Of a stretch of DNA of 64,000 nucleotides, positions 15,940 through 31,576 are shown one piece after another (positions within the stretch are counted from its first letter, which is position 1; the number at the start of each line of letters is the position of its first letter). The stretch comes from Marinobacter sp. C7 (GTDB lineage Bacteria; Pseudomonadota; Gammaproteobacteria; Pseudomonadales; Oleiphilaceae), in NCBI RefSeq assembly GCF_022343555.1, contig NZ_JAKQZH010000002.1, forward strand, positions 620,001 through 684,000, read 5' to 3'. Both the position numbers and the translations under genes were made by a program. The notes under the pieces were generated by a model. It ran no database searches. It worked only from the letters and a program-made list of their open reading frames with translations, and had not been told where the DNA came from.

Positions 15940-16200
15940 ATGACCTCTCCGACTGACATCAAAACCTTCGACGAATTGACCCGATACATCCGGGTCCGCA
16001 GCGAGCCGGATGAGAAGTTCGTTGAATTCGACTTTGCCATTGGCTACCCGGAACTGTTCGTCGAGCTTGTGCTGCCTCGCGAGGCCTTCGAACTCTTCTG
16101 CAAGCACAACAAAGTTGTCCACATGGACTCCGACATGATCCGCGAGATTGACGAAGACATGGTCAAGTGGCGGTTCGGGGAGCGGGGACAGCGTTACTAG
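15940..16200 (+). CDS. dmpK: Phenol hydroxylase assembly subunit P0
   Basis: An 86-aa protein of the DmpK/PhK family. In CF600 it is not needed for catalysis in vitro but helps incorporate iron into the oxygenase. Recognised from its size, sequence (RYIRVRSEPDEKFVEFDFAIGYPELF) and position as first gene of the dmp operon. The ATG has AAGGGG 7 bases upstream. It is the first gene transcribed from the sigma-54 promoter. Confidence 0.92.
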   Translation: MTSPTDIKTFDELTRYIRVRSEPDEKFVEFDFAIGYPELFVELVLPREAFELFCKHNKVVHMDSDMIREIDEDMVKWRFGERGQRY

Positions 16201-16227
16201 GCAACACCCATCAACCTCCACGTTCAC

Positions 16228-16235
16228 AACAACAA
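16228..16235 (+). promoter_or_regulatory. Hfq/Crc-like motif before dmpL
   Basis: AACAACAA lies 15 bases upstream of the dmpL ATG. It sits where a ribosome-binding site would be expected, and I see only a weak one here. Confidence 0.4.
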
Positions 16236-16250
16236 GACGGTTAAGTTGAT

Positions 16251-17252
16251 ATGAGCATCGAAATCAAGACCAACTCGGTGGAACCTATCCGCCAGACCTA
16301 CGGCCACATTGCCCGTCGTTTCGGCGACAAGCCGGCCTCGCGTTACCAGGAGGCCAGCTACGACCTTGAGGCCAAGACCAACTTCCACTACCGCCCGCTG
16401 TGGGATTCCGAGCACGGACTCAACGATCCGAACCGCACCGCCATCCGCATGGAAGACTGGTATGCGGTGACCGATCCACGTCAGTTCTACTACGGCGCCT
16501 ACGTGGGCAACCGCGCCAAGATGCAGGAAGCGGCCGAGACCAGTTTTGGCTTCTGCGAAAAGCGCAACCTGCTGGGCCGACTGCCCGAGGAAACCCAGAA
16601 GCAGCTGCTACGCCTGTTGGTTCCGCTTCGTCACGTCGAGCTCGGAGCCAACATGAACAACAGCAAGGCTGCCGGTGACGCCACCGCCACGACCGTCGCC
16701 CAGATGCATATCTATCAGGCCATGGACCGCCTCGGCATCGGCCAGTACCTGTCCCGGATCGCGCTGATGATCGACGGCAGTACCGGTACCAGTCTGGACG
16801 AGTCCAAGGGCTACTGGATGGACGATGCACTCTGGCAGCCGCTGCGCAAGCTGGTGGAAGACACCCTGGTCATGCAGGACTGGTTTGAGCTGAGCCTGGT
16901 CCAGAACGTTCTGATGGACGGCCTGCTCTACCCGCTGGTCTACGAAAAGATGGATCAGTGGCTGGGCGAACAGGATGCCGAAGACGTCTCCATGCTCACC
17001 GAGTTCATGCGCGACTGGTACAAGGAATCCCTGCGCTGGACCAACGCCATGATGAAAGCGGTGGCCGCTGACAGCGAAGCCAATCGCGAGCTGCTGCAGA
17101 CCTGGATCGATCACTGGGAGCCGCGGGTTTACGACGCACTCAAGCCTCTGGCAGAAGCCAGCACCGGTATTGAAGCCCTGGACGAAACCCGGGCCCAACT
17201 CGCCACCCGTCTCAAGAAATTCGGTCTTAACAGCCAGGGAGTATCCGCATGA
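16251..17252 (+). CDS. dmpL: Phenol hydroxylase oxygenase subunit P1
   Basis: 333 aa, the beta-type subunit of the multicomponent phenol hydroxylase, which pairs with DmpN (P3) and a small subunit in the heterohexameric oxygenase. It lacks the iron ligands found in DmpN, as expected of this subunit. Helical sequence such as LLRLLVPLRHVELGANMNNS is typical of the family. It lies 50 bases after dmpK; its stop overlaps the dmpM start by 4 bases (ATGA), indicating translational coupling. Confidence 0.93.
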   Translation: MSIEIKTNSVEPIRQTYGHIARRFGDKPASRYQEASYDLEAKTNFHYRPLWDSEHGLNDPNRTAIRMEDWYAVTDPRQFYYGAYVGNRAKMQEAAETSFGFCEKRNLLGRLPEETQKQLLRLLVPLRHVELGANMNNSKAAGDATATTVAQMHIYQAMDRLGIGQYLSRIALMIDGSTGTSLDESKGYWMDDALWQPLRKLVEDTLVMQDWFELSLVQNVLMDGLLYPLVYEKMDQWLGEQDAEDVSMLTEFMRDWYKESLRWTNAMMKAVAADSEANRELLQTWIDHWEPRVYDALKPLAEASTGIEALDETRAQLATRLKKFGLNSQGVSA

Positions 17253-17518
17253 GCCAGCTCGTATTCATTGCCTTCCAGGACAACGACAACGCCCGCTACC
17301 TGGTGGACGCCATTGCCGAGGACAACCCGGAAGCGGAGGTTCAGCACCAGCCCGCGATGATCCGGATCCAGGCGGAGAAACGCCTGGTGATCAACCGGGA
17401 AACCATGGAAGAAAAGCTCGGTCGCGACTGGGACGTGCAGGAGATGCTGATCGATGTGATCAGTATCGGCGGCAACGTCGATGAAGACGACGACCACTTC
17501 ATTCTTCAGTGGAACTGA
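17249..17518 (+). CDS. dmpM: Phenol hydroxylase effector/coupling protein P2
   Basis: 89 aa, the cofactor-free regulatory protein (MmoB/DmpM family) that binds the oxygenase and is required for efficient hydroxylation. Size and sequence (MSQLVFIAFQDNDNARYLVD) match DmpM. The start overlaps the dmpL stop, and dmpN follows 14 bases on. Confidence 0.93.
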   Translation: MSQLVFIAFQDNDNARYLVDAIAEDNPEAEVQHQPAMIRIQAEKRLVINRETMEEKLGRDWDVQEMLIDVISIGGNVDEDDDHFILQWN

Positions 17519-17532
17519 TTGGGAGACATACC

Positions 17533-19080
17533 ATGCCTGTTAAAAACAAGAAGCTTAATCTCAAAGACAAGTACCAGTACCTGACCCGGGATATGGCCTG
17601 GGAGCCCAGCTACCAGAAGAAAGAGGACATCTTTCCGAACGAATCGTTCGAAGGCATCAAGATCACCGACTGGTCCCAGTGGGAAGACCCATTCCGTCTG
17701 ACCATGGATGCTTACTGGAAATACCAGGCCGAGAAAGAGAAGAAGCTGTATGCGATCTTCGATGCGTTTGCCCAGAACAACGGCCACCAGAATATCTCGG
17801 ATGCCCGTTATGTGAATGCCCTGAAACTGTTCCTGACCGGCGTATCTCCTCTGGAGCACGCTGCGTTCCAGGGCTATGCCCGCGTTGGCCGGGACTTCAG
17901 CGGCGCCGGCGCCCGGGTGGCGTGTCAGATGCAGGCGATCGACGAGCTGCGTCACTCGCAGACCCAGCAGCACGCGATGAGCCACTACAACAAGCACTTC
18001 AACGGCCTGCATGATGCTGCTCACATGCACGACCGGGTGTGGTTCCTGTCCGTACCGAAGTCGTTCTTTGACGACGCGCGTACCGCCGGCCCGTTCGAGT
18101 TCCTGACCGCTATCTCGTTCTCGTTCGAGTATGTACTGACCAATCTGCTGTTCGTACCGTTCATGTCAGGTGCCGCCTACAACGGTGATATGGCCACCGT
18201 GACCTTCGGTTTCTCGGCCCAGTCCGACGAAGCGCGCCACATGACCCTGGGGCTTGAAGTCATCAAGTTCATCCTGGAGCAGCACGAGGACAACGTACCC
18301 ATCGTGCAGCGCTGGATCGACAAGTGGTTCTGGCGTGGTTTCCGCCTGCTGAGTCTGGTGGGAATGATGATGGATTACATGCTGCCGAACCGGGTCATGT
18401 CCTGGGCGGAGGCCTGGGAGGTGTACTACGAGCAGAATGGTGGTGCCCTGTTCAAGGATCTGGAGCGTTACGGCATCCGTCCGCCCAAGTACCAGGACGT
18501 GGCCAATGACGCCAAGAACCATGTCAGCCACCAGGCCTGGGCCACCTTCTACCAGTACGGCCATGCGACCAACTTCCACACCTGGATGCCGGAAAAGGAC
18601 GAACTGGACTGGCTGTCCCAGAAGTACCCGGAAACTTTCGACAAATACTATCGCCCCCGCTTCGAGTACTGGGCGAAGGAACACGCGGAAGGTCGCCGTT
18701 TCTACAACAACACCCTGCCGCAGCTGTGCCAGGTGTGCCAGATCCCGACCATCTTCACCGAGAAAGATGATCCGACTGTCCTGAGTCACCGCCAGATTGT
18801 CCACGAGGGCGAGCGCTATCACTTCTGCTCGGACGGCTGCTGCGACATCTTCAAGGACGAACCGGAGAAGTACGTTCAGGCCTGGTTGCCCGTGCACCAG
18901 ATCTACCAGGGCAACTGCGAAGGTGGGGACGTCGAGACCGTGGTGTCGAAGTACTACCACATCAATATCGGCGAGGACAATTTCGAGTACATCGGGTCCC
19001 CGGACCACAAGCGCTGGTTGTCCATCAAGGGCAAGCAGAGTGATGACAAAGAAAGCGGTTCCAGCCAGGACGCCGCCTGA
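17533..19080 (+). CDS. dmpN: Phenol hydroxylase catalytic di-iron subunit P3
   Basis: 515 aa (CF600 DmpN is 517). Holds the carboxylate-bridged di-iron centre that inserts one oxygen atom into phenol to give catechol. All six ligands are visible: Glu108, Glu138 and His141 (IDELRH), Glu199, Glu233 and His236 (SDEARH). The C-terminal part carries a Cys-rich TRASH-like zinc motif (CQVCQIPT ... HFCSDGCCDIF). The frame extends upstream to 17509, but the ATG at 17533 has GGGAG upstream and gives the family start MPVKNKKLN. An unusual 26-base hairpin lies between this gene and dmpO. Confidence 0.95.
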   Translation: MPVKNKKLNLKDKYQYLTRDMAWEPSYQKKEDIFPNESFEGIKITDWSQWEDPFRLTMDAYWKYQAEKEKKLYAIFDAFAQNNGHQNISDARYVNALKLFLTGVSPLEHAAFQGYARVGRDFSGAGARVACQMQAIDELRHSQTQQHAMSHYNKHFNGLHDAAHMHDRVWFLSVPKSFFDDARTAGPFEFLTAISFSFEYVLTNLLFVPFMSGAAYNGDMATVTFGFSAQSDEARHMTLGLEVIKFILEQHEDNVPIVQRWIDKWFWRGFRLLSLVGMMMDYMLPNRVMSWAEAWEVYYEQNGGALFKDLERYGIRPPKYQDVANDAKNHVSHQAWATFYQYGHATNFHTWMPEKDELDWLSQKYPETFDKYYRPRFEYWAKEHAEGRRFYNNTLPQLCQVCQIPTIFTEKDDPTVLSHRQIVHEGERYHFCSDGCCDIFKDEPEKYVQAWLPVHQIYQGNCEGGDVETVVSKYYHINIGEDNFEYIGSPDHKRWLSIKGKQSDDKESGSSQDAA

Positions 19081-19089
19081 TCCGGGATT

Positions 19090-19115
19090 CATCCGGAGCC
19101 TCAGGGCTCCGGATG
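19090..19115 (+). other. Intraoperonic hairpin between dmpN and dmpO
   Basis: CATCCGGAGCC-TCAG-GGCTCCGGATG is a perfect 11-bp stem with a 4-base loop, starting 9 bases after the dmpN stop codon. There is no U-tract, so it is probably an mRNA stability or partial-attenuation element that sets the ratio of the oxygenase subunits to the rest. Confidence 0.75.
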
Positions 19116-19128
19116 CTTCACCCACAAA

Positions 19129-19136
19129 AACAACAA
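19129..19136 (+). promoter_or_regulatory. Hfq/Crc-like motif before dmpO
   Basis: AACAACAA directly abuts the AAGGTG ribosome-binding site of dmpO. Confidence 0.4.
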
Positions 19137-19146
19137 GGTGACCATC

Positions 19147-19506
19147 ATGAGTGTAAATGCCTTATACGACTACAAATTCGAACCGAGAGACAAGGTCGAG
19201 AACTTCCACGGCATGCAGCTGCTGTATGTCTACTGGCCGCATCACCTGATGTACTGCTCCCCCTTTGCCTTTCTGGTTGCGCCGGACATGACCTTCGGCG
19301 CGATGATCGAGGAAGTGCTGAAGCCGGCGGTGTCGGCCCATCCGGATGCCGCGAAAGCCGATTTCCTCGGCGCCACGTGGCAGTTGAATGGCGAATCATT
19401 CATCCCCGATGCCAATGCCACCCTCAAGGACAGCGGCATTGATCACAAGAGCATGCTGACCGTCACCACCAAAGGGCTGGACGGCATCGCCGGCACCGCA
19501 TCCTGA
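19147..19506 (+). CDS. dmpO: Phenol hydroxylase subunit P4
   Basis: 119 aa, the small (gamma-type) oxygenase subunit, the same length as CF600 DmpO. The chosen ATG follows AAGGTG by 6 bases; an upstream GTG at 19138 is less likely. It is preceded by the hairpin at 19090-19115 and followed by dmpP after 10 bases. Confidence 0.92.
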   Translation: MSVNALYDYKFEPRDKVENFHGMQLLYVYWPHHLMYCSPFAFLVAPDMTFGAMIEEVLKPAVSAHPDAAKADFLGATWQLNGESFIPDANATLKDSGIDHKSMLTVTTKGLDGIAGTAS

Positions 19507-19516
19507 GGGCACTGTC

Positions 19517-20578
19517 ATGAGTCACACCGTAACCATCGAGCCGATTGGCGAGCAGATTGAGGTGGAGGATGGCCAGACCATTCTCCAGGCGGCTCTCCGC
19601 CAGGGCGTCTGGCTGCCCTTTGCGTGCGGCCATGGCACCTGTGCCACCTGCAAGGTCCAGGTGCTGGAGGGTGATGTCGAAGTTGGCGATGCATCGCCGT
19701 TCGCCCTGATGGATGTGGAACGGGACGAAGGCAAAGTCCTTGCCTGCTGCGCCACGGTCGAGAGCGACGTCACCATCGAAGCGGACATTGATGTAGACCC
19801 GGACTTCGAGGGCTACCCGGTCGAGGATTATGAAGCAACGGTCACCGATATCGTTGATCTGTCACCGACCATCAAGGGTGTGCACCTGAAGCTGGATCGG
19901 CCGATGACTTTCCAGGCCGGCCAGTACATCAACATTGAACTGCCTGGCGTGGATGGGCCGCGGGCTTTCTCGCTGGCCAATCCGCCGAGCAAGGCCGATG
20001 AAGTGGAGTTGCACGTGCGTCTGGTACCGGGCGGTGCCGCCACCACGTACATCCACGAGCAACTGAAGAACGGCGAGAAGCTGAATCTGTCCGGCCCCTA
20101 CGGTCAGTTCTTCGTTCGCAGCTCCCAGCCAGGGGATCTGATCTTCATCGCCGGCGGTTCGGGGCTCTCCAGCCCGCAATCCATGATCCTCGATCTGCTG
20201 GAGCAGAACGACGAGCGCAAGATCACCCTGTTCCAGGGCGCCCGGAACCAGGCCGAACTCTATAACCGGGAGTTGTTCGAGGCCCTGGACCGGGATCACG
20301 ACAACTTCACCTACGTACCGGCCTTGAGTGACGCAGCAGACGATGCCGACTGGCAGGGATTCCGGGGCTATGTCCATGAAGCGGCCAAGGAGCATTACGA
20401 CGGTCGTTTCTCGGGCAACAAGGCCTACATGTGCGGGCCACCTCCCATGATCGATGCTGCCATCACCGCCCTGATGCAGGGTCGGCTGTTCGAGCGGGAC
20501 ATCTTCATGGAGAAATTCCTGACAGCGGCGGATGGCGCGGAAGAAACCCAGCGCTCGGCCCTGTTCAAGAAGATATGA
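19517..20578 (+). CDS. dmpP: Phenol hydroxylase reductase P5
   Basis: 353 aa, NADH-dependent flavin and iron-sulfur reductase that supplies electrons to the oxygenase. The N-terminal domain has the [2Fe-2S] motif CGHGTCATC plus a later Cys (VLACCATV); residues ~105-210 are the FAD domain with RAFSLANPP; the C-terminal NAD domain contains FIAGGSGLSSPQSM and YMCGPPPMI. Domain order (ferredoxin, FAD, NAD) is that of DmpP and related class reductases. It is preceded by GAGGGC with a short spacer, and dmpQ follows 14 bases on. Confidence 0.94.
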   Translation: MSHTVTIEPIGEQIEVEDGQTILQAALRQGVWLPFACGHGTCATCKVQVLEGDVEVGDASPFALMDVERDEGKVLACCATVESDVTIEADIDVDPDFEGYPVEDYEATVTDIVDLSPTIKGVHLKLDRPMTFQAGQYINIELPGVDGPRAFSLANPPSKADEVELHVRLVPGGAATTYIHEQLKNGEKLNLSGPYGQFFVRSSQPGDLIFIAGGSGLSSPQSMILDLLEQNDERKITLFQGARNQAELYNRELFEALDRDHDNFTYVPALSDAADDADWQGFRGYVHEAAKEHYDGRFSGNKAYMCGPPPMIDAAITALMQGRLFERDIFMEKFLTAADGAEETQRSALFKKI

Positions 20579-20592
20579 CAGGGGAGGCAGTC

Positions 20593-20922
20593 ATGGCCGG
20601 ATTCCATGTACTGAACCGGACCACCGGAGATCGCTTCACCTGCCAGGATGGCCAGAGTGTGCTCAAGGCCATGGAGCAACTGGGCCTGAAGTGTGTGCCT
20701 GTCGGTTGCCGCGGTGGGGGTTGCGGTTACTGCAAGATCAGAGTGCTGGAGGGGGAGTTCGAGTGCGGAAAGATGAGCAAGGTGCATGTTCCCCCCGAAG
20801 CTGTTGAAAAGGGGGAAGTGTTGGCCTGCCGGATCTACCCCCTGACGGATTTGACCATAGAGTGCGTGCCCCTTCCTGAGGCCGCACTTGCCAAGCAAAC
20901 AACAACAAAATCGTTGAGGTAA
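20593..20922 (+). CDS. dmpQ: Chloroplast-type ferredoxin of the catechol 2,3-dioxygenase operon
   Basis: 109 aa. A [2Fe-2S] ferredoxin of the XylT/DmpQ type with [14 protein letters not shown] and a later Cys in VLACRIYPL. XylT reactivates catechol 2,3-dioxygenase by reducing its oxidised iron, which explains its place just before dmpB. The frame runs back into dmpP, but the ATG at 20593 follows GGGGAGG, a strong ribosome-binding site. Confidence 0.93.
20901..20908 (+). promoter_or_regulatory. Hfq/Crc-like motif before dmpB
   Basis: AACAACAA (inside the CAAACAACAACAAAA run) lies within the last codons of dmpQ, about 20 bases upstream of the dmpB ATG. Confidence 0.45.
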
Positions 20923-20927
20923 TTGTC

Positions 20928-21851
20928 ATGAAGAAAGGTGTAATGCGCCCCGGCCACGTCCAGATCCGTGTTCTCGATATGGATGAAGCTGTAAAACACT
21001 ATACGGACCTGCTGGGCATGATCGAAACCGATCGCGACGACCAGGGCCGTGTGTATCTCAAAGCATGGACTGAAGTGGACAAGTTCTCTCTGGTTCTGCG
21101 TGAAGCCGACGAGCCAGGCTGTGACTTCATGGCCTTCAAGGTGGTTAATGAAGAGGCTCTGAACCAGCTGGAAAGGGATCTGGTGGAGTATGGCGTCGAG
21201 GTTGAGCAGGTACCGGCTGAGGAGCTGAAGGATTGTGGCCGTCGGGTCCGCTTCCAGGTGCCCTCAGGCCATACCTTCGAGTTGTTTGCTGACAAGCAGT
21301 ACACCGGAAAGTGGGGCCTGTCGAGCGTGAACCCGGAAGCCTGGCCCCGTGGCCTGCAGGGCATGAAGGCCGTTCGTTTTGACCACTGCCTGTTCTATGG
21401 CCCGGAGCTGGCCGCCGTATACGACATCTTCGTGAATGTTCTGGGCTTCCACCTTGCCGAGCAGGTGCTGGACCCTGAAGGCACCCGCATTGCCCAGTTC
21501 CTCACCGTGTCGATGAAAGAACACGACATTGCCTTCATTCACCATGAAGAGAAAGGCAAGTTCCACCATGCATCGTTCTTCCTGGAAACCTGGGAAGACG
21601 TGCTGCGGGCAGCGGATCTGATCTCCATGACCGATACCTCCATTGATATCGGGCCGACCCGCCACGGTCTCACCCATGGCAAGACCATCTACTTCTTTGA
21701 CCCGTCCGGCAACCGTAACGAGGTGTTCTGTGGCGGCGATTACTTCTACCCGGATCACAAGCCGGTGACCTGGCAGGCTGAACAGCTCGGCAAAGCGATC
21801 TTCTATCACGATCGTGTGCTGAACGAACGCTTCCTGACCGTTTTGACCTGA
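20928..21851 (+). CDS. dmpB: Catechol 2,3-dioxygenase
   Basis: 307 aa, type I extradiol dioxygenase of the vicinal-oxygen-chelate fold that opens catechol to 2-hydroxymuconic semialdehyde. The Fe(II) ligands are exactly placed: His153 (FDHCL), His214 (FHHAS) and Glu265 (NEVFCGGD). Length and N-terminus ([19 protein letters not shown]) match DmpB/XylE. GAGG precedes the ATG. Confidence 0.96.
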
Positions 21852-21883: not shown

Positions 21884-23344
21884 ATGAAAGAGATCAAGCA
21901 CTACATCAACGGCGAGTACGTGGGTTCTGCCAGCGGAAAGCTGTTTGACAACGTCAACCCGGTGAACGGCAAGGTGATCGCCAAGGTTCACGAGGCCGGC
22001 CGGGAAGAAGTGGACGCGGCCGTGAAAGCGGCCCGTGCCGCTCTGCGCGGTCCCTGGGGCAAGATGACGCTGGAGGAGCGCACCCGGATTCTGCACAAGG
22101 TGGCCGATGGCATCAACGACCGCTTTGACGAGTTTCTGGAGGCGGAGTGCCAGGACACCGGGAAACCGAAGTCCATGGCCAGTCACATCGACATCCCCCG
22201 GGGTGCGGCCAACTTCAAGGTATTCGCGGACATGATCAAGAACGTGCCCACCGAATCCTTTGAAATGCCCACTCCGGATGGCACCGGTGCACTGAACTAC
22301 GCGGTGCGTCGACCCAAAGGTGTCATCGGTGTAATCAGCCCGTGGAACCTGCCTTTGCTGCTGATGACCTGGAAAGTGGGGCCAGCCCTCGCCTGTGGTA
22401 ACACCGTCGTGGTCAAGCCTTCAGAGGAAACTCCGAGCACCACGGCCTTGTTGGGTGAGGTGATGAAGGACGCCGGCGTACCGGACGGCGTGTACAACGT
22501 CGTTCACGGCTTCGGTGGTGATTCCGCCGGCGCCTTCCTGACTGAACACCAGGACGTAGACGGCTTCACCTTTACCGGTGAAACCACCACCGGTGAAATC
22601 ATCATGAAATCCGCTGCCAAAGGAATCCGGGATATCTCCCTGGAACTGGGTGGCAAGAACGCCGGCCTGGTCTTTGCCGACTGCGACATGGATAAGGCGA
22701 TCGAAGGCACCATGCGTTCCGCATTCGTGAACTGTGGCCAGGTATGCCTCGGCACCGAGCGTGTCTACGTGGAGCGTTCGATCTTTGATGAGTTCGTGTC
22801 GCGCCTGAAGGAAGAGGCGGAAAAACTGCGGATTGGCCCGCCCGATGATGACAAGGCCAACTTTGGCCCCCTGGTCAGCCTCAAGCACCGGGAGAAGGTT
22901 CTGTCCTACTACCAGAAAGCGGTTGAGGACGGTGCAACGGTTGTCACCGGCGGTGGTGTCCCGGACATGCCGGAGGAATACGCCGGTGGTGCCTGGGTTC
23001 AGCCCACGATCTGGACAGGTCTTTCCGAGGATTCTGCCGTCGTCACCGATGAAATCTTTGGGCCCTGTTGTCATATCTGTCCGTTCGACACTGAGGAAGA
23101 AGCGATTGAACTGGCCAACAGGCTCCCCTATGGCCTGGCATCGGCAATCTGGACCGAGAACGTGAGCCGCGCTCACCGTGTGGCCGGTCAGGTTGAAGCC
23201 GGCATCATCTGGGTCAACAGCTGGTTCCTCCGTGACTTGCGCACACCCTTTGGTGGCAGCAAGCAGTCAGGTATTGGCCGTGAAGGTGGTGTGCACTCCC
23301 TGGAGTTCTACACCGAAATGAAGAACGTCTGCATCAAGCTGTGA
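21884..23344 (+). CDS. dmpC: 2-Hydroxymuconic semialdehyde dehydrogenase
   Basis: 486 aa, NAD-dependent aldehyde dehydrogenase that oxidises the ring-fission product to 4-oxalocrotonate (2-hydroxymuconate). Family blocks are seen: SPWNLPLLLMTWKVGPALA, catalytic-Glu region ELGGKNAGLVF, and catalytic Cys in NCGQVCLGTERV. It belongs to the oxalocrotonate branch of meta-cleavage, complementing the DmpD hydrolytic branch. Confidence 0.94.
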   Translation: MKEIKHYINGEYVGSASGKLFDNVNPVNGKVIAKVHEAGREEVDAAVKAARAALRGPWGKMTLEERTRILHKVADGINDRFDEFLEAECQDTGKPKSMASHIDIPRGAANFKVFADMIKNVPTESFEMPTPDGTGALNYAVRRPKGVIGVISPWNLPLLLMTWKVGPALACGNTVVVKPSEETPSTTALLGEVMKDAGVPDGVYNVVHGFGGDSAGAFLTEHQDVDGFTFTGETTTGEIIMKSAAKGIRDISLELGGKNAGLVFADCDMDKAIEGTMRSAFVNCGQVCLGTERVYVERSIFDEFVSRLKEEAEKLRIGPPDDDKANFGPLVSLKHREKVLSYYQKAVEDGATVVTGGGVPDMPEEYAGGAWVQPTIWTGLSEDSAVVTDEIFGPCCHICPFDTEEEAIELANRLPYGLASAIWTENVSRAHRVAGQVEAGIIWVNSWFLRDLRTPFGGSKQSGIGREGGVHSLEFYTEMKNVCIKL

Positions 23345-23351
23345 GGTAGCC

Positions 23352-24212
23352 ATGAACGCACCTGTAGACAGCCCGGAAATCGGGCGCGAAATCATCGCGG
23401 CGGGCTATCGGACCAACGTCCATGACCAGGGTGAAGGTGGTTTCCCGGTGATGATGATCCATGGCTCTGGTCCCGGCGTGACCGCCTGGGCCAACTGGCG
23501 CCTGGTCATCCCAGAGCTGGCGAAACACCGCCGTGTGATCGCGCCGGATATGCTCGGCTTTGGTTACAGCGAACGGCCGGAGGACCAGACCTACAACCGG
23601 GAACGCTGGGTCAGGCATGCGCTTGGCGTGATGGATGAGCTGGGCCTGGAACAGGTGGATCTGGTGGGCAACTCTTTCGGCGGTGGTCTGGCTCTTGCTC
23701 TGGCCATCGAACACCCGGACCGGGTTCGTCGCCTGGTTTTGATGGGTTCGGTTGGCGTCAGCTTCCCGATCACCAAAGGCCTGGATGAGGTCTGGGGTTA
23801 CGAGGCGTCACTCGAAACCATGCGTCGCCTGATGGATGTATTTGCCTACAACAAAGGCCTGCTGACCGATGAGCTGGCGGAGATGCGCTATCAGGCAAGC
23901 ATTCGACCCGGTTTCCAGGAGTCCTTCGCAGCCATGTTCCCGGCGCCCCGGCAGCGTTGGGTCGATAACCTGGCGAGCAACGAGGACGATATCCGGGCCT
24001 TGCCCCACGAGACCCTGATTCTCCATGGCCGCGAGGATGAGGTGATCCCGCTGGAAGCGTCTTACCGGTTGGCTGAGCTGATTGATCGCGCCCAGCTACA
24101 CGTGTTCGGCCGCTGTGGCCACTGGACCCAGATTGAACATGCCGACCGGTTTGCCCGGTTGGTCAACGATTTTCTCAATGAAGCCGATCAAGCGGCTGCA
24201 GGAGACTCCTGA
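23352..24212 (+). CDS. dmpD: 2-Hydroxymuconic semialdehyde hydrolase
   Basis: 286 aa alpha/beta hydrolase that cleaves the ring-fission product directly to 2-oxopent-4-enoate and formate. The nucleophile is in GNSFGGGLAL and the catalytic His in GRCGHWTQIEH. The start lies 8 bases after dmpC; the stop overlaps the dmpE start by one base (TGATG). Confidence 0.94.
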   Translation: MNAPVDSPEIGREIIAAGYRTNVHDQGEGGFPVMMIHGSGPGVTAWANWRLVIPELAKHRRVIAPDMLGFGYSERPEDQTYNRERWVRHALGVMDELGLEQVDLVGNSFGGGLALALAIEHPDRVRRLVLMGSVGVSFPITKGLDEVWGYEASLETMRRLMDVFAYNKGLLTDELAEMRYQASIRPGFQESFAAMFPAPRQRWVDNLASNEDDIRALPHETLILHGREDEVIPLEASYRLAELIDRAQLHVFGRCGHWTQIEHADRFARLVNDFLNEADQAAAGDS

Positions 24213-24997
24213 TGGAACAAACACGAATCCAGGCGCTCGGCGACGAGCTCTACCAGGCCATGGTCAAGCGGGAGGCGGTGTCCCCCCTGACCAGCCGGGG
24301 CGAAGACATCACCATTGATGACGCCTACCACATTTCCCTGCGCATGCTCGAGCGCCGTCTGGCGGACGGTGCTTCGGTCATCGGCAAGAAGATCGGCGTT
24401 ACCAGCAAGGCGGTGCAGAACATGCTGAATGTGCACCAGCCGGATTTCGGCTACCTCACCGACGACATGGTGTTCAACAGCGGTGAAGTCATGCCGATCA
24501 GTGACCGGCTGATCGCACCCCGTGCCGAGGGCGAGATCGCCTTCATCCTGAAAAAGGATCTGAACGGGCCGGGGATTACCAATGCCGATGTCCTGGCCGC
24601 GACCGAGTGTGTGATGCCCTGTTTCGAGATCGTCGATTCCCGAATCCAGGACTGGCAGATCGCCATCCAGGACACCATCGCCGACAACGCCTCCTGCGGA
24701 CTGTTCGTGCTGGGTGACCAGGCCGTCTCCCCACGCAAGGTGGATCTGGTGACCTGCGGCATGGTGGTGGAGAAGAACGGCAGTGTGATCAGCGCCGGTG
24801 CCGGTGCTGCCGCCCTGGGTTCCCCGGTGAACTGTGTGACCTGGCTGGCCAACACGCTGGGCGAATTCGGCATCCCCCTGAAGGCGGGTGAGGTGATTCT
24901 CTCCGGCTCGCTGGTACCGCTGGAGCCGGTCAAGGCCGGGGACTACATGCGTGTGGATATCGGTGGCATTGGCAGCGCGTCGGTGCGCTTTGCCTGA
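24212..24997 (+). CDS. dmpE: 2-Oxopent-4-enoate hydratase
   Basis: 261 aa, hydrates 2-hydroxypenta-2,4-dienoate to 4-hydroxy-2-oxovalerate. It belongs to the same fold family as DmpH and fumarylacetoacetate hydrolase-like proteins, with acidic metal-binding residues in [10 protein letters not shown] and [13 protein letters not shown]. It is translationally coupled to dmpD and followed by dmpF after 23 bases. Confidence 0.93.
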
Positions 24998-25020: not shown

Positions 25021-25956
25021 ATGAGCAAGAAACTGAAAGCCGCCATCATCGGCTCGGGCAACATCGGCACCGACCTGATGATCAAGATCCTGCGCAACGG
25101 CCAGCACATCGAGATGGGCGCCATGGTCGGGATCGATCCGGAATCCGACGGCCTGGCCCGCGCCGCCCGCATGGGCGTGGCCACCACCCACGAGGGTGTG
25201 GACGGGCTGGTGAAGATGCCGGAGTTCGCCGACATCGACATCGTGTTCGATGCCACCTCCGCCAAGGCGCACATGCACAACGAGGTGTTCCTGCGCGGTC
25301 ACAAGGAAAACATCAAGATCGTCGACCTGACCCCGGCGGCCATCGGCCCGTACTGTGTGCCGGTGGTGAACCTGGAGCAGAACCTCCAGGAAGGCAACGT
25401 CAACATGGTTACCTGCGGGGGCCAGGCCACCATCCCGATGGTGGCGGCGGTGTCCCGGGTCGCCAAGGTGCACTACGCCGAGATTGTGGCCTCGATCTCC
25501 AGTAAATCCGCCGGACCCGGCACCCGCGCCAACATCGACGAGTTCACCGAAACCACCTCCAAGGCCATCGAAGTGGTGGGCGGTGCCCAGAAGGGCAAGG
25601 CCATCATCATCCTGAACCCGGCCGAGCCGCCGCTGCTGATGCGCGACACCGTCTATGTGCTGTCCGACGCCGCCGACAAGGCCGAGGTGGAAGCCTCCGT
25701 CGAGGAGATGGTCAAGGCCGTGTCCTCCTACGTGCCGGGCTACCGCCTGAAGCAGAAGGTGCAGTTCGACGACATCCCCGAAGACCAGCCCATGAACGTC
25801 CCGGGCCTGGGCCGCTTCAGCGGCCTGAAGACCTCCGTCTTCCTGGAAGTGGAGGGCGCCGCCCACTACCTGCCGGCCTACGCCGGCAACCTGGACATCA
25901 TGACCTCCGCCGCGCTGGGCACCGCCGAGCGCATCGCCGAATCGCTGGTCAAGTGA
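25021..25956 (+). CDS. dmpF: Acetaldehyde dehydrogenase (acylating)
   Basis: 311 aa, converts acetaldehyde, NAD+ and CoA to acetyl-CoA. The Rossmann motif [10 protein letters not shown] is at the N-terminus and the catalytic Cys lies in [10 protein letters not shown]. DmpF forms a complex with DmpG and receives acetaldehyde by channelling, so the adjacent pair is expected to work together. Third codon positions are almost all G or C, more than in dmpB-dmpE. Confidence 0.94.
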
Positions 25957-25968
25957 GGAGACTGACTC

Positions 25969-27006
25969 ATGACTTATAACCCCGGCAAGAAACTGTACAT
26001 CTCCGACGTGACCCTGCGCGACGGCAGCCACGCCATCCGCCACCAGTACTCCATCAAGAACGTCCAGGACATCGCACGGGCGCTGGACAAGGCCAAGGTG
26101 GACTCCATTGAGGTGGCCCACGGCGACGGCCTGCAGGGCTCGAGCTTCAACTACGGCTTCGGCGCCCACACCGACCTGGAGTGGATCGAGGCGGTGGCCG
26201 AAGTGGTCGAACACGCCAGGATCGCCACCCTGCTGCTGCCCGGCATCGGCACGGTCGAAGACCTTGAAGATGCCTACAAGGCCGGTGCCCGGACGGTCCG
26301 GGTGGCCACCCACTGCACCGAGGCGGATGTCTCGAAGCAGCACATCGAACACGCCCGCAAGCTCGGCATGGACACCGTCGGCTTCCTGATGATGAGCCAC
26401 ATGCAGACGCCCCAGGGCCTGGCCGAGCAGGCCAAGCTGATGGAAGACTACGGCGCGACCTGCCTGTACGTGGTCGACTCCGGCGGCGCGATGAACATGA
26501 ACGACATCCGCGACCGTTTCCGGGCCCTGAAAGACGTGCTGAAGCCGGAAACCGAGACCGGCATGCACGCCCACCATAACCTGGCCCTGGGTGTCGCCAA
26601 CTCCATCGTGGCGGTGGAAGAGGGTTGTGACCGTATCGATGCCTCCCTGTCCGGCATGGGCGCCGGTGCCGGCAACGCCCCGCTGGAAGTGTGCATCGCC
26701 GCCTTCGACAAGATGGGCTGGGAGCATGGCACCGACCTGTACGCCCTGATGGACGCGGCCGACGACATCGTGCGCCCGCTGCAGGACCGTCCGGTTCGCG
26801 TGGACCGCGAGACCCTGGCCCTGGGTTATGCCGGCGTCTACTCCAGCTTCCTGCGTCACTCCGAAGTGGCGGCGCAGAAGTATGGCCTGAAGACCGTGGA
26901 CATTCTGGTAGAGCTTGGCCGCCGCCGCATGGTGGGGGGCCAGGAAGACATGATTGTGGATGTGGCGCTGGATCTGCTCGCCGCACAGAAGGAGCAAAAC
27001 GCATGA
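25969..27006 (+). CDS. dmpG: 4-Hydroxy-2-oxovalerate aldolase
   Basis: 345 aa, TIM-barrel class II aldolase that cleaves 4-hydroxy-2-oxovalerate to pyruvate and acetaldehyde. The metal region has [14 protein letters not shown] near the N-terminus and HAHHNLALG, the metal-ligand histidines. Its stop overlaps the dmpH start (ATGA). Codon use is very G+C-rich in the third position, as in dmpF. Confidence 0.94.
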
Positions 27007-27797
27007 GCAAGACACTGACCCGAGAGCAGGTGCTGGCGCTGGCCGAGCACGTCGAGAACGCCGAACTGAAGGCCCATGACATCACCAAGGTCACCAACGA
27101 CTATCCGGACATGACCTTTGAGGACGCCTACGACGTCCAGTGGGAAATCCGCCGTCGCAAGGAAGAGCGGGGCAACAAGGTGGTCGGCATGAAGATGGGG
27201 CTGACCTCCTGGGCCAAGATGGCCCAGATGGGCGTGGAAACGCCGATCTACGGTTTCCTGGCGGATTACTTCAGCGTGCCCGATGGCGGCGTGGTAAACA
27301 CCAAGGAGCTGATCCACCCGAAGATCGAGGCCGAGATTGCCTTTGTCACCAAGGAGCCGCTGAAAGGCCCGGGTTGTCACATTGGCCAGGTGCTGGCCGC
27401 CACCGATTTTGTGATCCCCGCGGTGGAAGTGATCGACTCCCGCTACGAGAACTTCAAGTTTGACCTGGTGAGTGTGGTGGCGGACAACGCCTCCTCGACC
27501 CGCTTCATTACCGGTGGCCAGATGGCCGATGTGGCGGACGTCGACCTGAAGACCCTGGGTGTGGTTGTCGAAAAGAACGGCGAAGTGGTGGACGTGGGTG
27601 CCGGTGCTGCGGTGCTGGGCCATCCGGCCTCCAGTGTTGCCATGCTGGCCAACCTGCTGGCAGAGCGCGGCGAGCACATCCCGGCCGGCACCTTCATTAT
27701 GACCGGCGGTATTACCGCGGCCATCACGGTCGAGCCGGGTGACAACATCACCGTTCGTTACCAGGGGCTGGGCACCGTATCTGCCCGGTTCGAGTAA
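27003..27797 (+). CDS. dmpH: 4-Oxalocrotonate decarboxylase
   Basis: 264 aa, decarboxylates 2-oxo-3-hexenedioate to 2-oxopent-4-enoate and forms a complex with the hydratase DmpE. It is homologous to DmpE along its length ([39 protein letters not shown]). The open frame runs back into dmpG, but the ATG at 27003 follows AAGGAG and overlaps the dmpG stop, giving the exact family length. Confidence 0.93.
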
Positions 27798-27806
27798 GGA
27801 GGCATC

Positions 27807-27998
27807 ATGCCTGTTGCGCAGATCAACATTCTGGAAGGTCGGACTGACGAGCAAAAGGAAGAGCTGATCAGAGAAGTGACCGATGCAATCTCACGCTCCC
27901 TGGGAGCACCCGTAGAAAGCGTTCGGATCATCATTACGGAAATGCCCAAGCAACACTTTGGTATTGGTGGTCAATCTGCAAAGAAGCTGGGGCGATGA
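27807..27998 (+). CDS. dmpI: 4-Oxalocrotonate tautomerase
   Basis: 63 aa with the catalytic amino-terminal proline ([11 protein letters not shown], the initiator Met being removed) and family residues [17 protein letters not shown]. Converts the enol to the keto form of 4-oxalocrotonate before decarboxylation. Spacing of 9 bases from dmpH with an AAGGAGG ribosome-binding site. Completes the canonical dmpKLMNOPQBCDEFGHI order. Confidence 0.95.
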
Positions 27999-28036
27999 GC
28001 CTCAGCTTCTGATCCGATTTTTCAGGAGAAAGACCC

Positions 28037-28711
28037 GTGAACAAGTTGCCGGTGTTATTCGTCTCTTGCAACGCGAGCAGCCTGCAGGCTCAGCAGCAAG
28101 CTGGCTCCGGGCCAGCCCGGATGATCTGGGGCAAGCACTTCGAAAGTGTGGTGCTGATCAGTACGGACGCAGATCTTCAGGCGCCACTTGTCGTGCCGCT
28201 CAAAGGCGGCGCTGCTCGGGCCGAGCGCATTCAGGCACTGCTGAGTTCACAGGGTTTTAAAGCCAGCATCCAGTCGGAGCCTGCAAGCACACGTGACGGC
28301 TTGCTTCATGTGCTGTTGTCCGAGGAGCCTGGAGATCTCTCAGAAGTACGGCTGAATACCGGGATGAGCGAGCAGGAGTATCGTCGTATCGGCCAGTGTC
28401 TGGAGGTCCTGCGCGAGCAGGGCGTACTCATCATTTGCCTGGACGATAAGACCGATAGCCAGGTGCTGCTGCATGACCGTCACTTGCGGGAGATGATCAA
28501 CAGCTGGGTCCAGAACCAGCAATGGGGAGACGTCATGACATTCAAGGGGGGCTCTCAGAAAATCGTACCAACCCTGCGACTGGACGATCCGACGGTGTGC
28601 CTGCTCAATGCGGCCTTCGGTCTTGGTGGTTCGCAATTTCCCCAGAGGATGTTCAGCAGCGGCATGGACAACTCCGAACGGATGCTCTCCGGGTTCGGTT
28701 GGATGAGGTAG
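28037..28711 (+). CDS. Degenerate DODA/LigB-type extradiol dioxygenase homologue
   Basis: 224 aa with a GTG start 8 bases after AGGAGAA, 38 bases after dmpI, so likely the last gene of the operon. It aligns by eye over its whole length with the 4,5-DOPA dioxygenase/LigB class III extradiol family: PVLFVSCNASS for PxLFxGHGSP, VVLISTD for VVVSAHW, and LLNAAFGLGG for LLYVLGA near the end. The metal-ligand histidines are replaced (HG by CN, SAHW by STDA, and the NVVHN segment by DDKTD). It therefore looks like a non-enzymatic relative or an enzyme with a different chemistry. It may regulate, scaffold or bind an intermediate. Family assignment is moderate; loss of the His ligands is clear if the alignment is right. 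Confidence 0.6.
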   Translation: MNKLPVLFVSCNASSLQAQQQAGSGPARMIWGKHFESVVLISTDADLQAPLVVPLKGGAARAERIQALLSSQGFKASIQSEPASTRDGLLHVLLSEEPGDLSEVRLNTGMSEQEYRRIGQCLEVLREQGVLIICLDDKTDSQVLLHDRHLREMINSWVQNQQWGDVMTFKGGSQKIVPTLRLDDPTVCLLNAAFGLGGSQFPQRMFSSGMDNSERMLSGFGWMR

Positions 28712-28732: not shown

Positions 28733-29779
28733 TTAGCGATCTGTCAGTTTCAACTCAATCCGCCGGTTCTTCTGCAGCGCTTCCGGACTGGTGCCTTCGG
28801 CCACGGGGAAGAACTCGCCGAAACCGGCGGCCACCATGCGCCGCTCGGGTACCCCCTGGGCGGCCAGGTAACGCACCACCGCTACCGCGCGAGCGGTGGA
28901 CAGCTCCCAGTTGGAGGGGAATTTCGGCGTGTTGATGGGCAGGATGTCGGTGTGGCCATCAATTCGCAGGATCCAGTCGACATCTTCGGGAATCTTGCTG
29001 GCAACATCCAGCAGCAGACTCGCCAGCTTGTCGAGTTCGCGCTTGCCGTCCTCGCCCAGTTCCGCCGAGCCTGAGGCAAACAGCAGTTCCGAAGGCAGCA
29101 GGAAGCGGTCGCCTACGATCCGGATGTTCTCGTTGCTGGCGAGAATGTCCCGGAGCCGGGCGAAAAACTCGGACTGGTACTGCTCCAACTGACTCACCCG
29201 TTCGGCCAGCAGGGCGTTCAGTCGCTGGCTGACCTTGGCCAGCTCTTCTTCCTTCTCCGCGGTCATCTGTTCCTGCAGTTCCAGCGCCGAGGCTATCTTC
29301 CGTAGTTGTTCCCGCAGCGAAGCGATCTGGTTGGAGAGGCGCAGGATCATGGCCTGCTGGCTCGCGGACATTTCGTCCTTTTCATCGATGGAGGCTTCCA
29401 TGCTGGCCAGGCGTTCGGCCTGCGCCTCGGCGGTGGCCGTTTGCTGCATCAGCTGTTCGCGGGTGGACTCCAGGCTGCTCACCAGTTCGTCGTTACGGGT
29501 CAGGCTGCTGCTGTAATCCTCCTGCAGGGCGATCATCTGCTCTTCAAGAGCATCGGTTTTGCTCTGCTCCAGCCCCAGAAGCTCGGACAGCTCGTTCAAC
29601 TGGGCGTTCAGGCGCGCGAGCTGGGTATCGCGGTCGGACAGGGTCTGGGACAGATAGAGCTGACTGACCACATAAACCAGCAGCATGAAGATAACCAGCA
29701 TCAGCAGGGCCGACAGGGCGTCCACATAGCCCGGCCAGATGTTGGTACTGCTTCGGCTGCGGCGTTTGGATCCGATCAT
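28733..29779 (-). CDS. MotB/OmpA-family stator protein of an ion-driven motor-like pair
   Basis: 348 aa. A single N-terminal membrane helix (YVDALSALLMLVIFMLLVY) carries an Asp at its start, like the proton-binding Asp of MotB; a long coiled coil (~residues 50-200) follows, then a C-terminal OmpA peptidoglycan-binding domain with DGHTD and NRRIEL. The partner lies upstream and overlaps by 4 bases. No flagellar, Zorya or Tol genes are adjacent. Predicted to anchor an ion-driven complex to the cell wall. Confidence 0.85.
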   Translation of the reverse strand: MIGSKRRSRSSTNIWPGYVDALSALLMLVIFMLLVYVVSQLYLSQTLSDRDTQLARLNAQLNELSELLGLEQSKTDALEEQMIALQEDYSSSLTRNDELVSSLESTREQLMQQTATAEAQAERLASMEASIDEKDEMSASQQAMILRLSNQIASLREQLRKIASALELQEQMTAEKEEELAKVSQRLNALLAERVSQLEQYQSEFFARLRDILASNENIRIVGDRFLLPSELLFASGSAELGEDGKRELDKLASLLLDVASKIPEDVDWILRIDGHTDILPINTPKFPSNWELSTARAVAVVRYLAAQGVPERRMVAAGFGEFFPVAEGTSPEALQKNRRIELKLTDR

Positions 29780-30504
29780 GACAGGTCTTTCTCGTCATCG
29801 ACCCGATCCACCAGGTTGGTGACGCCGGTCAGCCACTCCTCCAGGCCGTCATAGAAACGGTTCTGGGCGTGACCGGCCTGGATGTCGAGAAAGCCCAGGA
29901 TCAGGGAGCCACCGAGTCCGAGAAGCGACGAGCTGAAAGCCGTGCCCATACCTTCCAGCGGTTTAAGCAGGCCGTTCTGCAGCTCTCCAAACACCTTGCC
30001 GAAATCCTCCTGGCTCATGTCCAGCCCGGTGATGACCTGCCCCACCGCATTGATGGTGCCCAACAGCCCCCAAAAAGTGCCCAAAAGGCCGAGGAATACC
30101 AACAGGCTGATGAAATACCGGGTGATCTCCCTTTGCTCATCCATGCGCGAATGAATGCCATCCAGCACCGTGCGAAGGGACAGCGTCGACAGCGTAAACC
30201 GGTCCCGTTTGGCCTCTTCGCCAAGCTGCCGGGCCAGCGGTTTGAGCAGGCGGGGCTCCTGCACCACCGAAAGACCGGCATGGCCGGTGCGGAACTGGGC
30301 GATCCAACGCAGCTCCGGAAACAGCACAAACACCTGTCGGTAGGTCAGGGCGATACCAACGATCAGAACGCCGACGATCAGCAGGTTGAAAACCCAGTTG
30401 GCCATGAAGGCGGTCATCAGCGGTTTGTGGATCAGAACACCGACAACCACGACCACGCCGAGGAAAAGCGTCATCCAGAAGAGAGTGTGTTTGGGATTGC
30501 TCAT
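29776..30504 (-). CDS. MotA/TolQ/ExbB-family proton-channel protein
   Basis: 242 aa with two N-terminal membrane helices (TLFWMTLFLGVVVVVGVLI, WVFNLLIVGVLIVGIAL) and a pair later (YFISLLVFLGLLGTFWGLL and a Gly-rich AFSSSLLGLGGSLILGFLD), the family layout. The open frame extends to 30633 and would overlap the divergent AraC gene, so the ATG at 30504 is preferred; no strong ribosome-binding site is visible. Transcribed with the MotB/OmpA partner. Function is unknown: possibly envelope integrity, or surface motility or defence-like motors. Confidence 0.82.
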   Translation of the reverse strand: MSNPKHTLFWMTLFLGVVVVVGVLIHKPLMTAFMANWVFNLLIVGVLIVGIALTYRQVFVLFPELRWIAQFRTGHAGLSVVQEPRLLKPLARQLGEEAKRDRFTLSTLSLRTVLDGIHSRMDEQREITRYFISLLVFLGLLGTFWGLLGTINAVGQVITGLDMSQEDFGKVFGELQNGLLKPLEGMGTAFSSSLLGLGGSLILGFLDIQAGHAQNRFYDGLEEWLTGVTNLVDRVDDEKDLS

Positions 30505-30568
30505 GACGAAAGGCCAGCCTGAAGGAAGTTTCACAGAAACATAGCACAGGCTGCGCAGGTACGTGGTT

Positions 30569-30582
30569 GTTGATTGATCAAC
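30569..30582. promoter_or_regulatory. Palindrome in the MotA-AraC divergent region
   Basis: GTTGAT-TG-ATCAAC is a perfect 6+2+6 palindrome between the two divergent starts, so it is a possible operator for either gene. The flanking region is A+T-rich. Confidence 0.4.
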
Positions 30583-30631
30583 GTGATTTATATAAAGTAA
30601 ACGCGTTAACAATAAATACAACGGAGCAGTC

Positions 30632-31576
30632 ATGTTCTCTCAGTCCCTAGCCGCCGCCACCATCTTTCATGGTGCCCATCCCGAGGACGTCTCGGCCTTC
30701 GTCAATCGCCATATCGGCGGTCACAGCCTGGATCTGCTGGGCGGGGAAAACCGCGCGTCGAGCCTGAGCTATCGGGAGTTTGCCGGCTTTGGCCTGTCCC
30801 GGGTCAGTTACGGCAATCATGTCCGGGTGAAAAGCCCGGCCCTGGAGGACATCTACCATTTCCAGATCGTAACCCGCGGGGAGTGTCGCTGGCGCCAGGG
30901 CAGTGACTGTCTGACCATGCGCCGTGGCCAGGCGCTGATGGTCAACCCGGATGAAGCGATTGACCTGGAATACAGCCCCGAGTGTGAGAAGGTCATTATC
31001 AAGGTGCCGGAGTCGGTGCTGAATTCGGCACGCGGAAGTGTCTGCAGGCAGCCTGTCCGCTTCGACCGGGTGCCGGTGAACCTGACGCTGTGTCCATCAC
31101 TGACCAACGTGCTGGAAGCGGTCTTTGCCGAGTTGGAAGAGGCCGGGGAGGATGGGGCGCCGGAAATCTCGCTGTCCTACCGCGAGATCATTCTGAAAAA
31201 GCTGCTGCGGGTGTTTCCCAGTAACCTTGAGGATCCGCAATCCGGTGCCGCCACTCCTCCGGGAGTCGACCGTATGGTCCGTTACATCGAGCAGAACGTG
31301 AAGGAGGATATCGGCGTGGACGAGCTGTCGCGGATTTCCAACATGAGCGTACGCTCCATCTACAACGCTTTTTCCCGGGCGTTCTCAACCACCCCGAAAA
31401 CCTACGTGAAGCAGGCCAAGCTCCGGCAGTTGCGGGAGGACTTGCTGCGTGGCCAGTGCCGAAACATCACCGAAGTGGCGCTGGATTACGGTTTCAGTCA
31501 CCTGGGCCGTTTTTCCTCCGACTACCGCAAGCTGTTCGGCGAACTGCCCTCGGAGACGGTCCGGCTGGTGGGCTGA
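30632..31576 (+). CDS. AraC/XylS-family activator (BenR-like)
   Basis: 314 aa with a cupin-type effector domain and a C-terminal double helix-turn-helix ending in YRKLFGELPSETVR, the signature of the XylS/BenR branch that responds to benzoates. GGAG precedes the ATG by 6 bases. It lies ~17 kb from benA and I do not see the XylS/BenR box (TGCA-N6-GGNTA) upstream of benA, so a benR role is tentative; its neighbours are the MotA/MotB pair and an IclR gene. The last 55 bases overlap the convergent IclR gene. Confidence 0.75.
   Translation: MFSQSLAAATIFHGAHPEDVSAFVNRHIGGHSLDLLGGENRASSLSYREFAGFGLSRVSYGNHVRVKSPALEDIYHFQIVTRGECRWRQGSDCLTMRRGQALMVNPDEAIDLEYSPECEKVIIKVPESVLNSARGSVCRQPVRFDRVPVNLTLCPSLTNVLEAVFAELEEAGEDGAPEISLSYREIILKKLLRVFPSNLEDPQSGAATPPGVDRMVRYIEQNVKEDIGVDELSRISNMSVRSIYNAFSRAFSTTPKTYVKQAKLRQLREDLLRGQCRNITEVALDYGFSHLGRFSSDYRKLFGELPSETVRLVG

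Follow-up and report, generated by a model that had tools for sequence, protein, structure and literature searches.

A putative DODA-fold pseudoenzyme at the end of a dmp-type meta-cleavage operon in Marinobacter

The dmp and xyl meta-cleavage operons are textbook pathways in which the genes have named roles. An operon of this type is present in the window analyzed here, a stretch of 64,000 nucleotides from the 4.06-Mb genome of Marinobacter sp. C7, and an additional ORF, here referred to as X, is located behind its tautomerase gene. The ring is cleaved in this pathway by DmpB, a class I enzyme of another superfamily than the class III fold of X. This raises the question of what a relative of the class III extradiol dioxygenases that appears to have lost its active-site histidines contributes to such an operon. 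On balance we lean towards the answer that X is a pseudoenzyme with the fold of the 4,5-DOPA extradiol dioxygenases (DODAs), selected as a non-catalytic accessory of the catechol meta-cleavage pathway. At the level of titles and abstracts, no paper describing the X family was found in the open-access literature with the terms used.

A dmp-type operon for the meta-cleavage of phenol/catechol ends with X (Table 1). The genes dmpB, C, D, E, F, G and H precede the tautomerase gene in this order, and according to the ORFs a gene for a DmpR-like regulator is likewise located upstream of the dmpB run. The tautomerase scored 52.1 against the NCBI DmpI model NF041920, which is below the cut-off of 70, and for DmpN no NCBIfam cut-off was reached in the window. 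The individual names dmpKLMNOPQ within the phenol hydroxylase region are presumably correct, as assigned from the gene order.

The ORF of X starts with a GTG codon, contains no internal stops and begins 38 nt behind the stop codon of the tautomerase gene. Its extent, ribosome-binding site and operon-like spacing were found as an earlier sequence-only reading had described them. The next long gene-like ORF (28733-29779) lies on the opposite strand, so that X closes the gene run. Judging from spacing and order, X and the Dmp enzymes are probably made from one transcript. There was no Rfam match at the gathering threshold between 27500 and 29000, and no terminator-like site was found between 27700 and 28900. 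On the minus strand, OmpA/MotB-like and MotA-like ORFs (28733-30633, assigned by eye) converge on the operon end.

Table 1. Features of the meta-cleavage operon and of gene X, in positions of the window
Feature	Position	Strand	Basis
dmpKLMNOPQ-type phenol hydroxylase genes and ferredoxin	15940..20922	+	ORFs; similar genes of the M. salarius plasmid pHL2708Z5 (L024) bear annotations as components of phenol hydroxylase
dmpB, catechol 2,3-dioxygenase, by which the ring is cleaved in this pathway	20928..21851	+	TIGR03211, 439.6 bits (cut-off 320.2)
dmpC, 2-hydroxymuconic semialdehyde dehydrogenase	21884..23344	+	TIGR03216 above cut-off
dmpD-type alpha/beta hydrolase	23352..24212	+	best NCBIfam models HsaD and BphD, below cut-offs; DmpD by gene order
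dmpE, 2-oxopent-4-enoate hydratase	24212..24997	+	TIGR03220 above cut-off
dmpF, acetaldehyde dehydrogenase (acetylating)	25021..25956	+	TIGR03215 above cut-off
dmpG, 4-hydroxy-2-oxovalerate aldolase	25969..27006	+	TIGR03217 above cut-off
dmpH, 2-oxo-3-hexenedioate decarboxylase	27003..27797	+	TIGR03218, 498.7 bits (cut-off 350.55)
4-oxalocrotonate (2-hydroxymuconate) tautomerase in the place of dmpI, adjoining X on the 5' side	27807..27998	+	PF01361, 1.3e-20; TIGR00013 and PRK01964.1 above cut-offs
AGGAGAAAGACCC, with Shine-Dalgarno-like AGGAG at 28024-28028, 8 nt ahead of the GTG of X	28024..28036	+	read from the sequence
X, 224-aa protein with predicted DODA fold, without the active-site histidines	28037..28711	+	ORF, translation, fold, family alignment
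X codon 11, Cys, aligned with BvDOD His15 (first iron ligand of DODAs)	28067..28069	+	joint alignment
X codons 134-136, Cys-Leu-Asp, at the Gly-Ser-Gly motif of DODAs	28436..28444	+	joint alignment
X codon 186, Thr, aligned with BvDOD His229 (third iron ligand of DODAs)	28592..28594	+	joint alignment

Homology and predicted fold of X

For the window protein no Pfam family was found at E ≤ 1, and 20 members of the X family gave no LigB match and only chance-like ones (three families with one member each, best 0.13). The NCBIfam DODA model did not recognize the family, with a weak match in 3 of 24 members and an E value of 0.019 at best, and two proteins compared with PHROGs yielded nothing. A PDB sequence search with a profile of 20 X sequences placed two DODAs on top with weak values (0.023 and 0.047).

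The comparison of profiles was more informative. Using hhalign, the 24 X members matched 26 active-type DODAs with a probability of 97.7 and an E value of 1.5e-12 over 219 columns, and the forced global alignment of the same two profiles reached 98.8. The X family HMM listed five DODAs among the fetched loci (1.7e-7 to 4.8e-4), four of which had been fetched via an earlier X profile; the window genome's own DODA (L035) was present in this locus set and absent from the list. With filters off and 27 DODAs as the only targets, the E values ranged from 1.4e-9 to 0.18, with L035 at 0.01. In the opposite direction, an HMM of five DODAs matched 19 of the 21 intact X-family ORFs in the set searched at E ≤ 0.001 (best 1.5e-9), missing the members L029 and L034. 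To judge from these profiles, the homology of X to the DODA/LigB proteins is real and covers nearly the whole length, and it is too weak to be recognized by Pfam or NCBIfam with single sequences.

The AlphaFold model of the window protein, based on the alignment of 24 sequences, had a pLDDT of 77.4 and a pTM of 0.79, with values below 50 at residues 22-27, 141-143, 170-178 and 210-212. All 30 Foldseek matches in the PDB at E ≤ 0.001 belonged to the LigB/DODA/APD/Memo superfamily. The best one was a DODA (5.4e-11); the TM-scores were moderate (about 0.5-0.6) and the rmsds large (6.8-11.8). VIA aligned the model with the beet DODA at a Z of 16.3 over 196 residues (rmsd 3.4), followed by YgiD (15.4), LigB (13.4), aminophenol dioxygenases (13.3 and 13.0) and MEMO1 (9.8), and the first unrelated chain appeared at Z 5.4. 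A second model was made for the divergent member L029, which is 24% identical to the window protein. Here the pLDDT was 79.0 and all 27 Foldseek matches at E ≤ 0.001 fell within the same superfamily, although both models were built from alignments of one family and are not fully independent.

X is thus predicted to possess the DODA/LigB fold of the class III extradiol dioxygenases, and a chance resemblance to DODA was rejected on the combined fold and profile evidence. The class III pattern that had been noticed from the sequence is borne out by hhalign, by the mutual HMM matches and by the fold. The structure comparison with LigB and DODA proposed at that time led to the same superfamily and to no unrelated fold.

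The three best PDB matches of the L029 model were chains of 7txy with 274-276 residues, a length that fits the alpha subunit of 2-aminophenol 1,6-dioxygenase as given in an excerpt of PMC10470539. They bear on an alternative in which X pairs, as a subunit without catalytic function, with a class III dioxygenase whose gene lies elsewhere in the genome, in the way the alpha subunit of that enzyme serves its beta subunit. A further, weak hint in this direction is that a PF02900 protein occurred in 17 of 17 X-bearing versus 26 of 35 tested X-free Marinobacter genomes (one-sided Fisher p about 0.02, calculated by hand and not corrected for kinship). However, these PF02900 sets consist of mixed subtypes, and in the window genome a single PF02900 protein was detected at E ≤ 0.01, on the same contig at a distance of approximately 480 kb. 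The known Dmp genes and X account for the operon's ORFs, none of which is matched by PF02900, and the best matches of the window model are DODAs rather than the aminophenol dioxygenase alpha subunit. We therefore regard this alternative as quite improbable.

Residues at the former active site

According to an excerpt of PMC11926856, His15, His53 and His229 of BvDOD are the iron ligands and His119 and His175 act in catalysis. At each of these five sites the joint alignment shows His in all 26 DODAs and in none of the 24 X members, the window included; the figure for the DODAs, in contrast to that for X, is due in part to the way the set was chosen. An HMM built from five motif-picked DODAs was used to assemble it: 27 ORFs scored above 240 bits, more distant LigB types scored lower, and one of the 27 (L080, a long open frame with an odd-looking motif pattern) was left out of the 26. 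Added later, it was found to carry all five histidines.

The first ligand column was occupied by Cys in 23 X members and by Ser in one, and the fifth (His229) by Thr in 22 of 24. At the second, third and fourth positions the replacements were highly variable. Near the third and fourth, where the loops are rich in indels, the alignment is uncertain. The Gly-Ser-Gly motif of the DODAs was replaced by C (24/24), L (22/24) and D (23/24). Furthermore, the stretch from SAHW to P-A-x-G, 31-32 aa long in the 26 DODAs, was reduced to 9 aa in every X member. The residues D, G, F, Y and Y that are conserved in DODAs fall into these gaps, and the missing segment of 22 residues presumably lines the substrate pocket of DODA.

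The sequence-only reading had stated that the histidine ligands are replaced by non-ligand residues. The replacement holds at all five sites, and the search for conserved ligands in the close homologues of X returned none in 24; the second half of the statement has to be qualified, since Cys at the first site is not strictly a non-ligand residue. The loss of the pocket segment in all 24 members is an addition to that reading. On the alignment, the loss of the histidines is common to the whole X family and no oddity of the window copy, and X would accordingly be devoid of dioxygenase activity.

Two readings in which X is still an enzyme have to be considered here. In the first, X remains an iron-dependent dioxygenase with displaced ligands which the alignment has missed. 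This could be argued from the uncertain indel-rich loops and from the four model stretches with a pLDDT below 50. However, no column of the X-family alignment contained His in more than 17 of the 24 sequences, which makes a three-His site common to the family impossible, and the pocket segment is missing in addition. This reading is very unlikely.

In the second, X has acquired new chemistry, with a thiol or Cys-metal site rebuilt from Cys11, Cys134 and perhaps Cys188 and acting on an intermediate of the meta-pathway. Cys134 was present in 24, Cys11 in 23, Cys188 in 22 and Cys121 in 21 of the 24 members, and C134 and R151 are among the nine invariant columns of the family. MEMO1 of the same superfamily binds iron via two His and a Cys, as stated in an excerpt of PMC11081632. 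On the other hand, L029 lacks both Cys11 and Cys188 and L034 lacks Cys188, none of the nine invariant columns is a His, Asp or Glu, and buried strand ends commonly carry Cys as well. We consider a rebuilt cysteine site doubtful, if worth keeping in mind.

Distribution and divergence of X

A search with the window protein detected X in 17 of 145 related genomes, all of them Marinobacter. The second matches in this search were a broken X copy in the genome G036 and a true DODA in the genome G063. In a sample of 390 genomes of the order, the X family profile matched 10, of which four represented DODAs and six X-family members: the window, G002, G401 and G418 as well as G294 and G455, which belong to another family and genus. 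In the samples of the class (369 genomes) and of the phylum (398 genomes), in which at most seven first-look candidates were scored per listed genome, the profile found the window and one further match each, in both cases a DODA with histidines. The window protein had no match among phages, and the divergent member L029 had none among plasmids. Named carriers of X are Marinobacter pelagius, M. litoralis and a Marinobacter MAG; a copy with 57.5% identity is encoded on plasmid pAltEZ55 of Alteromonas macleodii EZ55.

The position of X is conserved. The sequence-only reading had proposed a search for the same gene after dmpI in other genomes; the tautomerase gene was directly upstream in 23 of the 24 aligned members, the remaining one being cut off by a contig end. 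In 14 of 15 fetched X-bearing regions all 15 queried Dmp proteins (DmpM was not queried) were encoded in order up to X. One of these 14, region L112, has about 2 kb of DNA separating dmpH from the tautomerase gene. In G002 the operon stops at a contig end and X opens another contig. In four regions (L026 to L029) X is followed by a gene resembling 2-dehydropantoate 2-reductase (PanE; assigned by eye, and so annotated in L024), and in L048, where X is missing, a PanE-like gene is located directly behind the tautomerase gene.

In the Alteromonas plasmid the genes upstream of the meta-pathway are those of a benzoate dioxygenase and not of a phenol hydroxylase. A phenol-specific role for X was rejected, as this copy follows benzoate genes; X is tied to the lower meta-pathway and not to one substrate. 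The meta-pathway with X on pAltEZ55 is flanked by integrase, intron and transposase genes, the picture of a Marinobacter-like operon on the move. According to an excerpt of PMC6972757, toluene and xylene support growth of strain EZ55, and the catechol meta-cleavage section of this strain resembles Marinobacter clusters most closely. An operon holding X therefore appears to be functional.

Not every pathway carries X. Among the Marinobacter genomes with dmpH above the cut-off, 17 of 28 possess X; the other 11 had no match to the window protein anywhere and no match to the family HMM within 1.5 kb of dmpH, searches which a very divergent X elsewhere in these genomes could escape. The conservation assumed by the sequence-only reading thus applies to part of the genus. 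A tautomerase gene followed dmpH in 7 of these 11 genomes, and none was seen adjoining dmpH in 4. Since the seven have dmpH and the tautomerase without X, X is dispensable for the pathway. Of five X-free regions that were fetched, four (L115-L118) keep the genes from dmpB to the tautomerase and one (L119) is rearranged.

The absence of X from these 11 genomes, the lost active site and the fast evolution of the protein could also mean that X is a functionless, decaying remnant of a DODA gene. Broken copies do exist in G036 and on the M. salarius plasmid. Selection, however, contradicts decay. Pairwise dN/dS of X (Nei-Gojobori) ranged from 0.088 to 0.205 in 12 of 12 pairs, all taken within groups, and on this basis X as a pseudogene was rejected. 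Each of the 21 genomes with a family match keeps at least one intact copy, G036 included, and the predicted fold persists in L029 at 24% identity. A remnant is therefore largely refuted and, in our opinion, hardly credible. The broken copy of the plasmid pHL2708Z5 (L024:11651-12378) is located behind an otherwise ordinary meta-cleavage operon. The same holds for the broken copy of G036 (L021), the intact X of which lies elsewhere in the genome.

Although X is under purifying selection, it changes far more rapidly than the neighbouring genes of the operon. For dmpH, dN/dS was 0 to 0.045 in five of seven planned pairs, with 3 of 11 dmpH copies left out. Between the window and regions L109-L112 six core enzymes are 94% identical and X 34-37%; in comparison with L113 the core enzymes are 90% and X 23% identical. 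Strongly different versions of X (23-37% identical in L109-L113 versus the window) thus occupy one slot behind core enzymes with 90-94% identity.

This divergence at the operon end suggests exchange or bursts of change. As the 12 pairs within groups are all below 0.21, the gap between groups looks like the result of old versions being exchanged or of an earlier burst of change. A Mantel test of X against core-enzyme distances gave r 0.50, with 9 of 2000 permutations as high, and shows only partial co-inheritance. Additionally, the trees conflict: L111 groups with L101 by the core enzymes and with L109, L110 and L112 by X. Gene exchange and accelerated change cannot be separated here, because synonymous sites of X are near saturation between groups.

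Proposed role and comparison with known systems

That X is a conserved, non-catalytic relative of ring-cleaving enzymes within a meta-cleavage operon, as proposed by the sequence-only reading, is supported by the fold, the family-wide loss of the site, purifying selection and synteny. A function as regulator or scaffold is plausible. In the accessory role that we favour, the iron site, the catalytic histidines and the segment of the substrate pocket would have been lost from a class III extradiol dioxygenase fold of the 4,5-DOPA-dioxygenase type, and selection would keep the protein as a non-catalytic accessory of the catechol meta-cleavage pathway. X may then act by binding, most likely to a pathway enzyme which it could stabilize, assemble or tune; a ring-fission product would be a less likely target. 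The accessory role is the most economical reading, as it accounts for the loss of the site that defines DODAs, for selection, for the linkage to the lower pathway and for dispensability.

The low conservation of X in comparison with core enzymes of 94% identity nevertheless sits oddly with this proposal, since close contact with a conserved enzyme would be expected to leave X less variable. Nor do we know of a reason why DmpB, as a class I enzyme, should interact with a class III fold. A more far-reaching and tentative idea is that fast-evolving DODA-fold pseudoenzymes are a dedicated partner of the class I meta-cleavage pathway, a swappable tuning module at a fixed slot, possibly with a rebuilt Cys site. 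A selected and operon-locked X with a dismantled dioxygenase site would add an as yet unassigned component to a textbook pathway in marine hydrocarbon degraders.

Among known proteins X is most similar to the 4,5-DOPA extradiol dioxygenases (BvDOD, 8in2 and 9j2l; E. coli YgiD, 2pw6), both by best fold match and by profile homology. It differs from them by the absence of the five histidines, by CLD instead of GSG and by the lacking 22-aa pocket segment; accordingly, the members of the X family have 212-232 aa in comparison to 255-275 aa of the DODAs as trimmed by script.

The alpha subunit of 2-aminophenol 1,6-dioxygenase (AmnA/CnbCa; 3vsg, 7txy) shares the LigB fold with X, which is without iron ligands. 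In excerpts of the respective reports, the iron active site of this enzyme was shown in the beta subunit, with neither subunit soluble alone (PMC10470539), and the alpha subunit is encoded in a meta-cleavage operon (PMC3790839). However, the alpha gene adjoins the gene of its catalytic beta subunit, whereas the operon of X revealed no gene for a class III partner, and the model of the window protein matches DODA better than the alpha subunit.

MEMO1 is a LigB-fold protein which binds iron, has a Cys in the metal site and in which no dioxygenase activity was detected, according to an excerpt of PMC11081632. It keeps two His ligands (H49 and H81 in that excerpt), whereas X has no His at either of the places equivalent to them via the DODA/LigB ligands. 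By fold MEMO1 is farther from X than DODA is (VIA Z 9.8).

A functional rather than structural parallel is provided by the same kind of operon. The ferredoxin DmpQ/XylT is an accessory of the operon with the role of reactivating catechol 2,3-dioxygenase. If X is an accessory, both would be helpers encoded in the operon they serve, while belonging to unrelated kinds of proteins; and as a DmpQ-like gene is present beside X, X is no stand-in for DmpQ. To the few non-catalytic proteins of LigB fold known to us, X would add a case of the DODA type.
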